DNA of 64,000 nt, taken from assembly GCA_026129405.1 (NCBI GenBank), contig JAHCID010000004.1, forward strand, positions 124,001-188,000. Reading direction: 5' to 3'. Below, piece after piece: positions 26,705 to 31,970 of the stretch. The position numbers and the translations under genes were made by a program. The DNA is from a bacterium (GTDB lineage: Bacteria; Desulfobacterota; Binatia; DP-6). A model generated the notes under the pieces. That model ran no database searches. It worked only from the letters and a program-made list of their open reading frames with translations, and was not told the origin of the DNA. The first letter of the stretch is position 1. Every line of letters begins with the position of its first letter.

Positions 26705-26755
26705 TTGACGACGCGGACTTCGGAAGACTACACCGCGGCTCGTACCGATCGGTAC
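26705..26755 (+). promoter_or_regulatory. promoter with a perfect TetR-type operator
   Basis: TTGACG at 26705-26710 and TACACC at 26729-26734 (18-base spacer) form a sigma-70-like promoter. Just downstream, at 26742-26755, is the perfect 14-base palindrome GTACCGATCGGTAC, typical of TetR-family operators and placed at the expected transcription start. The TetR gene begins at 26765, so autorepression of the whole three-gene operon is the natural reading. Confidence 0.7.
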
Positions 26756-26764
26756 ACATCCGCC

Positions 26765-27415
26765 ATGCAGGTCGCGCAGACGTCGCCGAAGCCCGCCAAC
26801 GCCGACGAGGTCCGGCGGCGCATCCTCGATGCCGCCGAAGAGGTGTTCGCGGCGCGCGGCTACGGCGCCGCGACGACGCGCGAGATCGCGGAGCGCGCCG
26901 GCATCGGCAAGCGGATGCTGTTCTACTGGTTCACCAACAAGGACGCCGTCTATCGCGCCGTCCTGGAGCGCGTGGTGACCGGCATGGTCGGCATCCACGA
27001 GCAGTTCCGTCTCGACCCCGGCCCCATCGGGCTCGGCGAGTCGATGGAAGGCATCACCCACTTCGCCGCCGCGAACCTGAACGCGCTGAAGATCCTCACT
27101 CGCGAGATCATGGACGGCGGCGCGCACGTGAAGGACCTCGTTCAGGAGCACCTCGGGCCGCTGTTCGCGCGCGGCGGCGAGGAGGTGCAGCGCAACATGG
27201 ACGAGCAGGTGTTCCGCAGCGGCGATCCGCTCCAGGTGCTCGTGAGCGTCGCCGGCCTCACGCTGTACTACTTCCAGATGCTGCCGCTCCTGGAGTTGCT
27301 CCGGGGGCAGGACCCACTCGAGCCCAGGGCGATCGCCGAACGCGCGGCAGCCGCCCGGGACCACCTGATGCACGGCTTGCTGGGCCCGAAGGCCCAGGGG
27401 AGGGGAACGCCGTGA
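26765..27415 (+). CDS. TetR family regulator of the cytochrome operon
   Basis: A 216-residue TetR protein. The DNA-binding domain has ILDAAEEVFAARGYGAAT and the helix-turn-helix TREIAERAGIGKRMLFYWF (about residues 38-56). The C-terminal ligand domain (about 75-210) includes GITHFAAANLNALKILTREI and resembles TetR_C proteins that sense hydrophobic ligands. ATG 26765 is preferred over the in-frame TTG at 26705, which is the -35 box. Its TGA overlaps the GTG of the cytochrome gene (GTGA), so regulator and cytochrome are translationally coupled. The inducer is unknown. Confidence 0.9.
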   Translation: MQVAQTSPKPANADEVRRRILDAAEEVFAARGYGAATTREIAERAGIGKRMLFYWFTNKDAVYRAVLERVVTGMVGIHEQFRLDPGPIGLGESMEGITHFAAANLNALKILTREIMDGGAHVKDLVQEHLGPLFARGGEEVQRNMDEQVFRSGDPLQVLVSVAGLTLYYFQMLPLLELLRGQDPLEPRAIAERAAAARDHLMHGLLGPKAQGRGTP

Positions 27416-30400
27416 GCACCGTTCGGAAGCTCGTCAAGCTCGTCCCGATGCTGGTCCTGATCGTCGCCGCCGGCGGCGCCGACGCGGCGCCGACGCGCTC
27501 GAGTCCCGTCGCCGTCGGTCCGGACGGGACCGTGTTCGTCGTCAACCCGGATCAGAACAGCGTCGCCCGCATCGTCTACGATCCGTCCGCGGTCGGTACG
27601 CTGACGCACGAGAGCAGCGTCGGGGCGTATCCGCGCACGCTCGCCGTCGCCGGCTCCTGGGTCTACACCGCCGACCAGAACGGCGACGGCGTCTCGCGGC
27701 GCGATCAGGCCGACCTCGGCAACCTCCAGCAGGTTGCGCTCGGCCAGGGCTGCAACCCCTTCGGCATCGCGCCGACGCCGGGCGGCGATCAGCTGCTCGT
27801 CACCTGTCAGGGCAGCAGCGAGGTCGTCTTCCTGTCGCCCGATCTCGCCGTGCTCGCGCGCGTCGAGCTCGAGTGGCCGGGGGCGCGCGCCATCGCCGTG
27901 TCCGACGACGGCCGCGCCTTCGTGGCCCACTACCTCACCGAGGAGCCGGGCCACGATGCGCACGTCTCGGTTCTCGACGTCGGCCAGCGTGTGGTGTCGA
28001 CGGTCTGGAACATCCCGCCCGACCTCGCGACCTGCGAGACGCAGAACTCGGGGCAGGGCGTGCTGAACCTGCTCAACACGATCGCCATCGTCCCCGCCGG
28101 GCTCCAGGGAGGGCAGGTGTGGGTCGGCGGCACGCAGGAGAACACGATCTCCAAGGGCCTTTTCAAGCGCTACACGCCGTTCCTCGAGCAGGCCGGCCAC
28201 GACATGTTCCCGGGTGTCGACTACCTCCCGCGGCCGATGGCCGAGTCGTCCGCCGGCAAGAAGAAGGGCAAGAAGGGCGGCAAGCCGACGCTGCCCGCGT
28301 TCCCGAGCAGCGCCGCCGCCCGCAACAAGTACAAGGCGTCGTTCCACGACATCACGCGCTTCGGCATCGTGAAGCTCGACGGCGTGACCGGCGCCGTCGT
28401 TGGCAAGATCGACGTCGACGAGGCGAATCACGCCACCGACCTCGAGTTCTCCGCGGACGGCGACGTGGCCTACGTGGTCGACCAGATGTTCCACAGCTAC
28501 CACGTGTTCAACACGGCGCGCGGGCAGGGCGGGGATCCGACGACGCTCTTCGCCGGCGTCGCCGCGAACGGCCCCGGCGGCGCGGACCCGGCCGCGAACT
28601 GCATCCCCGACGCGCTGAACCAGATCCGCAACGAGCGCCCGTACCGCATGGCGCCGCAGGCGCAGATCACGCCGATCGACGGCTACGATCCGGTGAAGAT
28701 CGGCGACTACTCGAAGGTCGAGACCGGCGTCGACTTCGACGCCGCGACCTACATGTCGACGGTGCCGCCGATCGAGAAGATGCGGCTCGTCCCCGACGCG
28801 ATCGGCACTGCGCCGATCGGCGTCCGGCTCTCGGCCGACGGCTCGCGGGCCTACGTCGCGAACTACCTGGCGCGCAACATCGTCGTCGCGGCGACGGCGC
28901 AGCCGACGGGCGGCGACGGCAAGCCGGCGCAGCTGCGCTGTGCGGCCCAGATCGAGCTCACCTGCGGTACGAACAACGACTGTCCGGCGGGCGCCGGCGT
29001 CTGCAATCACCCGGGCGGCCCGTCCTGCAGCACGGACGCCGACTGCGGCGACAGCGGTCCCTGCATCCGCAGCCAGGACTGCGTCCCGCTGATCCTGGGC
29101 GACCCCGTCGGTACGCTCGCCGGCGGGTTGGAGAGCGACGCCCTCCATCCGGCCATCCTCGACGGCAAGATCCTGTTCAACACCGCCGGCCGCGACTCCA
29201 GCACGCCGAACAACATCGGGCTCGGCGCGGCGGCGCCCCTCTTCAATGACCCGGCGAAGACGGGACGCCTCCCCGGCAGCGTCGTCAGTACGGCGCACGA
29301 CGCCTCCTACGTCACCTGCTCGACCTGTCACGCCGACTACGGCGGGCAGGACGGCCGTTCCTGGGACTTCTCGCAGTTCGGCGCCTCGCTGCGGAACTCG
29401 ATGGACCTGCGTGGTCGCTCGGCGTTCGCCCCGGGCACGTGCAGCAACGACGCGAGCCAGCAGTGCTTCTTCGACGCCGCCTGCGGCGCCGGGAACTTCT
29501 GCCGCGCGCAGCCGCAGATGATCCCGCCGAACGTCGCCCCGGCCGACCGCGAGCGTTGGTTCAACCCGATGCTCACCGTGCACTGGAACGGCGACCGCGA
29601 CGAGGTCGAGGACTTCGAGTTCACCTATCGCTCGCTGCTCGGGGCCGGCGACTGCGACGGCTTCGAGGACGTCGGCACCGGCGACGTCGCCACCGGCTGC
29701 ATGGGCGCGCTCATCCAGCGCAACAGCTTGACGACGACCGATCCGGTCGACGTCAACCCGGACCTCGGGGCGCCGAACCGCAACCTGCGCGGCATCGTCG
29801 ATCCGTCGAAGATCGTCGGCATCCGCCTTTCGCACATGGCCGACTTCGTCTACTCGCTGACCGAGTTCCCGCGGAACCCGAACCAGCCCGACGAGGCCGC
29901 CGAGCGCGGCCGTCGCATCTTCAACGACCCGCAGACGCGCTGCGCGCAGTGCCACGCGTCGAACCAGGGCGTCGGCCGCGAGTTCTTCACCGACAAGAAG
30001 CCGAGCACCAGCTTCGATCCGACCCAGCCCGGTCGCGCCGACCGCAACAACCCGTTCCTGCGCCACGACGTCGGCACCGCGAACCTCTTCGACAAGGCCG
30101 ACCCGCACGCGGTGGCGATGCATACGCAGAGCTTCCACAACGAGCGTACGCAGCAGCCGGGCCCACGCGACGTGCTCGGCGAGTACGTCACGCCGGTGTT
30201 GAACGACCTCTGGAACACGGCGCCGTACCTGCACGACGGCAGCGCGCATACGCTGCTCGACGTCGTTCGCCCGTGCGACACGACGCTGGACGCCTGCCTC
30301 GCCGCCGGCCGCGGTCGCAACCTCGACGAGAAGCACGGCGGCACGGCTTTCCTGACGCCGCAGCAGATGAACGACCTCACCCGGTTCCAGGAAACGCTCA

Positions 30401-30921
30401 GCGTCGACACCATCGTCGGGCAGGGCGATCGCGCGGTGCACGCGGGACGACTGCGGATGTCCCGCCTGCAGGTCGCGACCAGCAAGAAGGGGGCAACGAC
30501 GGTCGCGATCACGGGGCAGCTGACCGACGTGCCGGGGGCACTCGACCCGGCCGCCGGTCTGCTGCTGTCCTTCGCCATGCCGGGCGGCAAGCGCATGACC
30601 ATCGTCGAGCGCCCGATGGCGATGAAGGCCAAGGGCGGCAGCTTCGTCGGCGAAGCGGCCGACGGCAGCAGGCTGAAGCTCAGGATGAAGTCGGCGGGCG
30701 GCGGCTGGCGTTTCACGCTCTCGGGCAAGAAGCTCGACCTCGCCGCGCTCGACTTCGGTACGCCCGACGGCACCGTCCGCCGGCGCGACCTCACGGTCGC
30801 GTTCGAGATCGCGTCGGGAAGCGGCACCGTCCCGGCGACGTTCGCGCAGGGACGCGTCCTCGAGGGCAAGAAGCGAAAGCTCGCGCTCGCCAAGCCGGGC
30901 AAGAACGGGAGGAAGGGCTGA
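27412..30921 (+). CDS. exported YVTN beta-propeller/di-haem cytochrome c fusion protein
   Basis: A 1169-residue protein with signal peptide (LVKLVPMLVLIVAAGGADA). Residues 30-500 are YVTN-type propeller repeats (VAVGPDGTVFVVNPDQNSV, LSADGSRAYVANYLARNIVV). A Cys-rich insert (CGTNNDCPAGAGVC, CSTDADCGDSGPC) lies near 520-560. Two haem c sites follow, C636STCH and C844AQCH, in a region like di-haem cytochrome peroxidase/MauG-type proteins. Residues 1020-1169 are beta-rich module A with a basic tail. A Lys/Gly-rich loop (KKKGKKGGK) interrupts the propeller. It probably transfers electrons outside the cytoplasm; the substrate is unknown. The GTG start is coupled to the TetR gene. Confidence 0.85.
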   Translation: MSTVRKLVKLVPMLVLIVAAGGADAAPTRSSPVAVGPDGTVFVVNPDQNSVARIVYDPSAVGTLTHESSVGAYPRTLAVAGSWVYTADQNGDGVSRRDQADLGNLQQVALGQGCNPFGIAPTPGGDQLLVTCQGSSEVVFLSPDLAVLARVELEWPGARAIAVSDDGRAFVAHYLTEEPGHDAHVSVLDVGQRVVSTVWNIPPDLATCETQNSGQGVLNLLNTIAIVPAGLQGGQVWVGGTQENTISKGLFKRYTPFLEQAGHDMFPGVDYLPRPMAESSAGKKKGKKGGKPTLPAFPSSAAARNKYKASFHDITRFGIVKLDGVTGAVVGKIDVDEANHATDLEFSADGDVAYVVDQMFHSYHVFNTARGQGGDPTTLFAGVAANGPGGADPAANCIPDALNQIRNERPYRMAPQAQITPIDGYDPVKIGDYSKVETGVDFDAATYMSTVPPIEKMRLVPDAIGTAPIGVRLSADGSRAYVANYLARNIVVAATAQPTGGDGKPAQLRCAAQIELTCGTNNDCPAGAGVCNHPGGPSCSTDADCGDSGPCIRSQDCVPLILGDPVGTLAGGLESDALHPAILDGKILFNTAGRDSSTPNNIGLGAAAPLFNDPAKTGRLPGSVVSTAHDASYVTCSTCHADYGGQDGRSWDFSQFGASLRNSMDLRGRSAFAPGTCSNDASQQCFFDAACGAGNFCRAQPQMIPPNVAPADRERWFNPMLTVHWNGDRDEVEDFEFTYRSLLGAGDCDGFEDVGTGDVATGCMGALIQRNSLTTTDPVDVNPDLGAPNRNLRGIVDPSKIVGIRLSHMADFVYSLTEFPRNPNQPDEAAERGRRIFNDPQTRCAQCHASNQGVGREFFTDKKPSTSFDPTQPGRADRNNPFLRHDVGTANLFDKADPHAVAMHTQSFHNERTQQPGPRDVLGEYVTPVLNDLWNTAPYLHDGSAHTLLDVVRPCDTTLDACLAAGRGRNLDEKHGGTAFLTPQQMNDLTRFQETLSVDTIVGQGDRAVHAGRLRMSRLQVATSKKGATTVAITGQLTDVPGALDPAAGLLLSFAMPGGKRMTIVERPMAMKAKGGSFVGEAADGSRLKLRMKSAGGGWRFTLSGKKLDLAALDFGTPDGTVRRRDLTVAFEIASGSGTVPATFAQGRVLEGKKRKLALAKPGKNGRKG

Positions 30922-31970
30922 TGAACGCACGTCACGGCACCGTCGCCACGCTCGCCCTGGCTCTCGCCGCCGGCGGCGTCCACGCAGGCACCTGCACGAT
31001 CGAAGGCGCGGGCCTGCGCAGCATCAATCACATCGGCTCGGTGGGCGATCTGCTCTCCCCCGTGCCGTCCGCGAACGGCTACGACATCGAGGTCGACGTC
31101 GACGAAGCCGCGGGCACGTTCATCGTGCGACGCGAGGCGATGCCGCCGTTCGAGTTCGGCTCGCCGGGCGGCAACGTCGCGCTCCGGCTCGCCGGTCCCG
31201 TCGTCGCGGGGCGGATCGACGCCAAGGGCCACGTGCGTCTCGGGCCCTGGAGCCTCGAAGCCGACTTCGCGGGCATCCCGCTGCCGCAGAGCCCCGTGTT
31301 CTCGACGGGGATCAAGTCGAACCAGCAGTTCGACAAGGAGTTCCCGAGCGTCGGCGCCGCGCTCGACTTCACGACGGGGATCCTGACGCTCGACGGCAAT
31401 GCCAAGATCGCGAGCGCGCCGATCATCTCGGAGCCGGTGGCGACCAACTACAAGATCACCTGCCGGCTGGCCCCGATCCCGAACGCCGCCGCGCTCCCGG
31501 CCGGCGCCTCGCTCGTGAAGCCGCGCGGCACCGCGAAGGTGAAGGGCGCCCCGGAGGGCGATTCGCTGGTCCTCACCGCGAAGCTCGTGCCGCCGGCCGA
31601 GGGTCTGGATATCGCGGGCCGGGACGTCGTCGTGCAGATCGGCGATACGCCCGAGACCGCGCTGCTCTTCAGCGTCGCCCACGCCGACGTGCTCGGCGCG
31701 AAAGGAAAGAAGCGTCTCGTGAAGGACGCCGGCGGCGCGTCGCTGCGTGTGCTGAAGGGGCGCAAGGGCACGGACGAAACGCCCGTTCCCACGAGCGGGT
31801 CGCTGGTCGTGACCCCGGGCAAGAAGAGCATCGCCCTGAAGCTCACGCTGAAGGGCCTCGACCTCGCGGCGCTGTCGGGCACCCAGCAGGTGACCGTCGG
31901 CATCGGCGACGTTTCGGCGAGCGCCCCGGTCACCGTCGCGGGCAGCGGCAAGAAGCGCAAGCTCAAGTAG
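30921..31970 (+). CDS. exported protein with C-terminal beta-rich module A
   Basis: A 349-residue protein. ATG 30921 shares its A with the cytochrome TGA (TGATG) and has a GGGAGGAAGG site. The signal peptide (GTVATLALALAAGGVHA) is followed by GTCTIEGAGLRSINHIGSVG. The middle part is beta-rich (GPWSLEADFAGIPLPQSPV) and ends CRLAPIPNAAALPAGAS. The last 150 residues (DIAGRDVVVQIGDTPETA, VVTPGKKSIALKLTLKGLDL) match the module shared by its neighbours, with the basic tail GSGKKRKLK. It is the last gene of the TetR-controlled operon and is followed by a 30-base GC palindrome. Function unknown; probably a partner of the cytochrome. Confidence 0.7.
   Translation: MNARHGTVATLALALAAGGVHAGTCTIEGAGLRSINHIGSVGDLLSPVPSANGYDIEVDVDEAAGTFIVRREAMPPFEFGSPGGNVALRLAGPVVAGRIDAKGHVRLGPWSLEADFAGIPLPQSPVFSTGIKSNQQFDKEFPSVGAALDFTTGILTLDGNAKIASAPIISEPVATNYKITCRLAPIPNAAALPAGASLVKPRGTAKVKGAPEGDSLVLTAKLVPPAEGLDIAGRDVVVQIGDTPETALLFSVAHADVLGAKGKKRLVKDAGGASLRVLKGRKGTDETPVPTSGSLVVTPGKKSIALKLTLKGLDLAALSGTQQVTVGIGDVSASAPVTVAGSGKKRKLK

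Follow-up and report, generated by a model that had tools for sequence, protein, structure and literature searches.

An apparently TetR-autoregulated operon for an exported propeller/di-haem protein resembling hydrazine synthase beta-gamma in a member of the Binatia

Introduction

Fused homologues of hydrazine synthase (HZS) beta-gamma, members of the MauG/bCCP superfamily, are known from several phyla (PMC12758564). Those found outside the anammox bacteria were reported in 2025 as clades I-IV (PMC12758564), and the open-access papers that we found assign no function to them. In HZS gamma, the ligands of haem II are His229 and His332 (PMC12607021), and the haem ligation of RoxA is also bis-His (PMC6311187). 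A distal triad of Gln, Pro and Glu is common to MauG, bCCP and BthA (PMC6405878).

The locus described here lies in a 64,000-nucleotide stretch of DNA (the window; contig JAHCID010000004.1, positions 124,001 to 188,000) from a member of the Binatia. Its large protein has in common with the fused HZS beta-gamma of the Scalindua type, and with the non-anammox homologues, an exported chain of propeller and MauG-type di-haem domain, and it resembles HZS gamma in its predicted bis-His haem II. A Trp stands at the position of gamma-His144, as in non-anammox clades I-III (PMC12758564). In contrast to HZS beta-gamma, there are Cys-rich inserts, a C-terminal beta module and TetR control, and an alpha subunit was not detected. 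RoxA/RoxB and the FadCcp oleate enzymes are likewise exported di-haem proteins with a bis-His C-terminal haem and PY-x-H-(D/N)-G, and RoxA also has the inter-haem Trp, but these enzymes have no propeller, the similarity covers only a short stretch (RoxB 2e-3, RoxA 0.011), and the equivalent of RoxA F317 was not aligned in the large protein. BthA, MauG and MbnH belong to the same superfamily and carry the motif TP-x-L..APY-x-HDG, but haem II is Tyr/His in MauG and BthA, and their distal Gln/Pro/Glu set is apparently not conserved here. With TetR-family autorepressors that have a TetR_C_29-type C-terminal domain, the locus shares a helix-turn-helix (HTH) and a palindromic operator at the repressor's own promoter, although the operator sequence is its own. 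A sequence-only reading of the window had known of no described system with this layout; that was half right, since the core is the known fused HZS beta-gamma architecture and the locally regulated variant is new.

Gene Order and Promoter

The operon was confirmed as observed. A TetR gene, a gene for an exported 1169-residue protein and a gene for an exported partner (gene 3), all backed by codon-usage gene calling, overlap tightly in the order described (Table 1). The first two share 4 nt (GTGA, with the GTG start inside the TetR stop), and the propeller gene and gene 3 share 1 nt (TGATG). Also present as described were the perfect 14-bp palindrome before TetR and, in the large protein, the propeller, the Cys-rich insert, both CxxCH sites and the C-terminal beta module. 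The TTG at 26705, which had been listed as the open reading frame start for TetR, is the -35 box and an unlikely start codon.

Two further claims stood in part. The -35 box of the proposed promoter (TTGACG, 26705-26710) is kept as CTTGAC[A/G] in the G003 orthologue, 35 bp from the operator compared with 37 bp here, but the -10 box that follows the 18-nt spacer (TACACC, 26729-26734) is weak, with 3/6 matches, and a strict sigma-70 scan reported no promoter at the TetR operon. Gene 3 does encode an exported protein, but a copy in it of the large protein's C-terminal module is tentative, since BLASTP between the two modules was not significant and a profile-profile comparison was suggestive (E = 1.8e-4, probability 49%). 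For TetR, the operator and the haems, the observation is firm.

Table 1. Features of the operon and of the large protein, in window coordinates.
Feature	Position	Strand	Remarks
Small exported protein P6	26059-26664	+	5' of TetR; tentative stand-alone copy of C-terminal beta module
Putative promoter TTGACG-18-TACACC	26705-26734	+	strong -35, weak -10; read from sequence
Predicted TetR operator GTACCGATCGGTAC	26742-26755	n/a	first base 23 bp 5' of TetR ATG
TetR-family repressor gene	26765-27415	+	216 aa; ATG 26765, TGA end 27415
Propeller/di-haem gene	27412-30921	+	1169 aa; GTG start 27412; exported, HZS beta-gamma-like
Putative Sec-type signal peptide	27412-27489	+	about residues 1-26, ADA-A; read by eye
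Beta-propeller	27490-28911	+	about residues 27-500; PDB 5c2v_B (HZS beta), 1l0q (YVTN S-layer)
Cys-rich insert	28939-29082	+	residues 510-557, 8 Cys
Haem I site CSTCH	29317-29331	+	residues 636-640; aligned with HZS gamma haem I; open distal side predicted
Trp725	29584-29586	+	inter-haem Trp position, HWNGDRDEVEDFE..R motif; invariant in 16/16 relatives
Haem II site CAQCH	29941-29955	+	residues 844-848; aligned with HZS gamma haem II, His229
MauG/RoxA motif PYLHDG	30223-30240	+	residues 938-943; PF21419 RoxA-like 2.9e-7
His975	30334-30336	+	predicted as the other axial ligand of haem II; HZS gamma His332 in the alignment
C-terminal beta module	30424-30840	+	25-38% identity among propeller relatives
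Partner gene (gene 3)	30921-31970	+	349 aa; ATG start 30921; exported; no Pfam or NCBIfam family

The Operator and the Reach of TetR Control

The TetR protein carries a TetR_N HTH domain (PF00440, 3.6e-17, 62.3 bits against a Pfam cut-off of 24) and a second domain match to PF17938 (1.3e-7). Orthologues with 56-62% identity were found in G003, G004 and G005. Among 148 genomes of the class, orthologues above 50% identity were confined to these three and G000, and beyond these four genomes the next-best matches had at most 36% identity. The closest full-length relatives include RutR, which senses a pyrimidine; such matches indicate that not every TetR inducer is hydrophobic.

Within the 5.6-Mb genome the exact palindrome is unique, and GTACCG-NN-CGGTAC was found at the promoters of two TetR orthologues. 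The search for the consensus GTACCGNNCGGTAC covered ten genomes, with a chance expectation of ~0.6 per genome and ~1e-5 per 120-bp promoter. The consensus lies at TetR promoters in three genomes (G000, G003, G005), the arrangement of a TetR autorepressor with a conserved palindrome before its own gene; in G003, a propeller-gene promoter carries it as well. Exact sites at TetR or propeller promoters numbered 1/1 in G000, 2/2 in G003 and 2/2 in G005, this count of 5/5 covering the three genomes with a readable TetR promoter; in G004, that promoter reads as N throughout, which leaves the operator unreadable. At the start codon of the G003 TetR orthologue (60% identity) stands TGTACCGGGCGGTACA, with a TTGACA 35 bp ahead of the site. 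The second exact site in this genome is on another contig, directly before an unlinked paralogous propeller/di-haem gene, and a TTGACA box starts 13 bp ahead of it. In G005, two exact sites and one variant lie ahead of the TetR orthologue (56%). As a control, the pattern was read backwards, and it gave about as many exact sites per genome; therefore, the evidence for the operator is carried by positions, not by counts. Sites with one mismatch were rejected as regulon members because they were at or below this background, and exact matches inside called coding genes (G001:C151 and G032:C28) were taken as chance.

The tandem of TetR and propeller genes is found in G000, G003 and G004, with an identical GTGA overlap in G003. 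In G004, P6, TetR and propeller follow in this order as far as the contig reaches, and a second contig begins inside a propeller gene with a gene-3 homologue adjoining downstream (33%, E 4.6e-29); we infer that the two contigs join. This recurrence of operator and overlapping gene order in relatives supports a TetR-autoregulated operon for an exported di-haem protein, and the operator that marks the second propeller/di-haem gene of G003 supports the regulation further. The sequence-only reading had held that homologues without TetR or operator in most genomes would speak against it, and this was found in part. Outside one family, propeller/di-haem homologues have neither TetR nor operator; both are missing beside the propeller gene in G005, G013, G032 and G036 and beside the second copy that this genome carries, and TetR is unlinked to the enzyme gene in G005 and outside family f1. 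TetR control is thus a lineage trait, belonging to part of family f1.

Family Placement

Two CxxCH sites and a C-terminal APY-x-HDG place the large protein in the bCCP/MauG superfamily, and the succession of propeller and MauG-type di-haem domain within a single chain places it with the fused HZS beta-gamma-like proteins. Pfam returned RoxA-like and cytochrome fragments, and the propeller scored 21.3 against Lactonase PF10282, below the cut-off of 21.7. Among NCBIfam models, HZS gamma gave the best match (2.3e-13) and the HZS beta-gamma fusion the next best, with 49.8 bits against a cut-off of 625 for NF052341 and 40.7 against 1250 for NF052342, and 16/16 aligned relatives matched the two models likewise. 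RoxB (16.6 of 900 bits) and RoxA (14.3 of 1000) also fell below their cut-offs, and the MbnH model TIGR04039 was matched in 15/16 relatives. Among solved structures, the profile matched HZS gamma best (1.2e-25) and then BthA, bCCPs and RoxA, and the N-terminal part matched HZS beta in the PDB.

Members of the Cys-rich clade were found in nine genomes of the class, namely six of the seven family-f1 genomes searched, G013, G032 and G036. A second clade, whose members carry PKD/Big_5 and CBM-like domains, is represented in six genomes. A scan of a plasmid collection gave one match, to the propeller only, and a scan of named genomes gave one relative, in a MAG labelled Deltaproteobacteria, on the same contig as that of G036.

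Haem Ligands and Residues between the Haems

Alignment with HZS gamma predicts a bis-His haem II (H848/H975) and an open haem I (H640); His975 is kept in 11/11 members of the Cys-rich clade. Comparison with MauG/bCCP and HZS gamma likewise places Trp725 at the predicted inter-haem position. An AlphaFold model of the whole protein, built from two input sequences, had a pLDDT of 27.5, so residues of the distal pocket were taken from sequence. At Trp+10, +14 and +20 (ungapped count from W725), where the Gln/Pro/Glu triad would fall by a spacing taken from residue numbers and aligned bCCP text rather than from a structure, the triad is absent and F735, Y739 and A745 are found, with E736 and R740 invariant in 16/16 aligned sequences. 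The missing triad, together with a bis-His haem II and an open haem I, suggests that ordinary peroxidase or MauG chemistry is unlikely.

Besides the Cys-rich insert, four further Cys lie between residues 677 and 697. C748 was considered as a third haem-Cys bond, comparable to that of HZS gamma-Cys165, and rejected because the alignment puts it out of register and it is conserved together with C763; the C748-C763 pair is more likely a disulfide.

Proposed Mechanism and Alternatives

In the reading that we favor, to which we give an even chance, the operon regulates itself, is inducible and encodes an exported oxidoreductase that oxidizes or oxygenates an organic compound at haem I. TetR would bind GTACCGNNCGGTAC at its own promoter and repress TetR, the propeller/di-haem enzyme and the partner until released by a small ligand, which may be the substrate or a derivative of it. 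The three proteins would then be made by coupled translation, followed by export and haem attachment. A small molecule (O2, peroxide, NO or an organic compound) would react at the open side of haem I, and haem II would trade electrons with a c-type cytochrome, with Trp725 placed between the two haems and the propeller shaping access or docking the partner. The most likely reaction, and the weakest step of the scheme, is an extracytoplasmic oxidation or oxygenation of a small organic compound; it is suggested by the missing triad, by a predicted bis-His haem II like those of RoxA and HZS gamma, and by TetR control, with the substrate class drawn by analogy. Against it, the protein resembles HZS gamma, which is reductive, more closely in sequence than it does oxygenases such as RoxA.

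The earlier interpretation of a ligand-induced extracytoplasmic electron-transfer protein was therefore partly supported: an exported, TetR-autoregulated di-haem protein and its operon regulation were upheld, but the novelty as stated was not, and "electron-transfer" was too narrow, since one bis-His and one open haem, as predicted, are the layout of an enzyme. A bolder form of the favored reading, in which a free-standing HZS beta-gamma-like enzyme without alpha is a TetR-inducible exported oxidase or oxygenase of one specific small compound, is doubtful. If true, this would be new chemistry for the propeller/di-haem architecture and would hint at a pre-anammox role of the hydrazine synthase ancestor. 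A dedicated repressor with a recognizable operator offers a way in, because the releasing ligand would strongly hint at the substrate or product, and GTACCGNNCGGTAC can be used to find further regulon members. In genomes without detectable alpha, the propeller/di-haem part is retained and controlled by itself, which also bears on the assembly of hydrazine synthase.

Nitrogen chemistry like that of HZS gamma, with haem I reducing NO or a related nitrogen oxide via haem II and TetR sensing nitrosative stress or a nitrogen compound, is unlikely. In its favor, every search put HZS gamma nearest by sequence; HZS gamma has the bis-His haem II, and its haem I binds NO (PMC12607021). However, the Trp that replaces gamma-His144 is shared with non-anammox homologues whose key residues are unconserved (PMC12758564), gamma-Cys165 and Asp168 have no aligned equivalent, and C748 is probably tied up with C763. 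HZS-alpha (PF18582) was found neither in this genome nor in family f1 or G013, yet the model matched in 8/14 related genomes (G025, G032, G036, G045, G063, G068, G069 and G080), which comprise 6/6 second-clade (PKD/CBM-type) genomes plus G032 and G036. Far below the HZS models and with no HZS-alpha detected in its genome, the large protein, judged on sequence, is not hydrazine synthase. The PF18582 proteins (L132-L135 and others) are open frames of ~800-1450 aa on other contigs than the propeller gene, and an unlinked alpha/beta-gamma pair is possible in those eight genomes.

A maturase like MauG or MbnH, oxidizing residues of the partner encoded by the adjacent gene, would fit the adjoining of that gene and the TIGR04039 matches of the relatives; it is very unlikely, as most relatives have no partner gene, a MauG-type Tyr ligand is not predicted, and the partner's single Trp is unaligned with any in the G004 homologue. 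We give very little credence to a pure electron conduit, a di-haem wire on a propeller scaffold without catalysis. A 665-aa cytochrome (L045, G003:C14, 4620-6617) that contains 5 CxxCH and gave weak matches of the ExtKL/MtrC/NapC-like kind lies directly downstream of the operator-bearing paralogue of G003, co-directional and with a gap of ~140 bp. This multihaem neighbor would suit a conduit, but a second protein ligand is predicted for one haem only and the superfamily is enzymatic; for the inducible oxidoreductase that we favor, the cytochrome supports an electron-transfer partner. A bCCP-type peroxidase of the periplasm, induced by stress and acting on hydrogen peroxide, has superfamily membership in its favor but is very unlikely given the unconserved triad, a haem II predicted to be bis-His and not Met/His, the very long extra domains and the dedicated TetR control.

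Neighboring Genes

The genes upstream of P6 (22718-26055) were left out of the system because they are not at the propeller loci of the relatives fetched. P3, P4 and P5 in this segment gave no family matches; P3 is an exported barrel-like protein with a CDICAVY motif, and P4 resembles, by eye, copper monooxygenases with lost ligands. Near the TetR orthologue of G005 (L093, G005:C224, 2761-6356) are genes for an outer-membrane efflux protein, a multicopper oxidase, a DUF5666 protein and a cytochrome c, ~1.4 kb from that gene and its 2-3 operators and with no clear gene between. In genus g2 (L039 and L041; G005 and G006), the propeller gene follows an apparent TonB C-terminal gene, not TetR. Finally, a ~1050-aa protein with CHRD and DUF4215 comes after the propeller/di-haem paralogues of this genome and G036 (L038, 11906-15100, and L048, 6542-9697).
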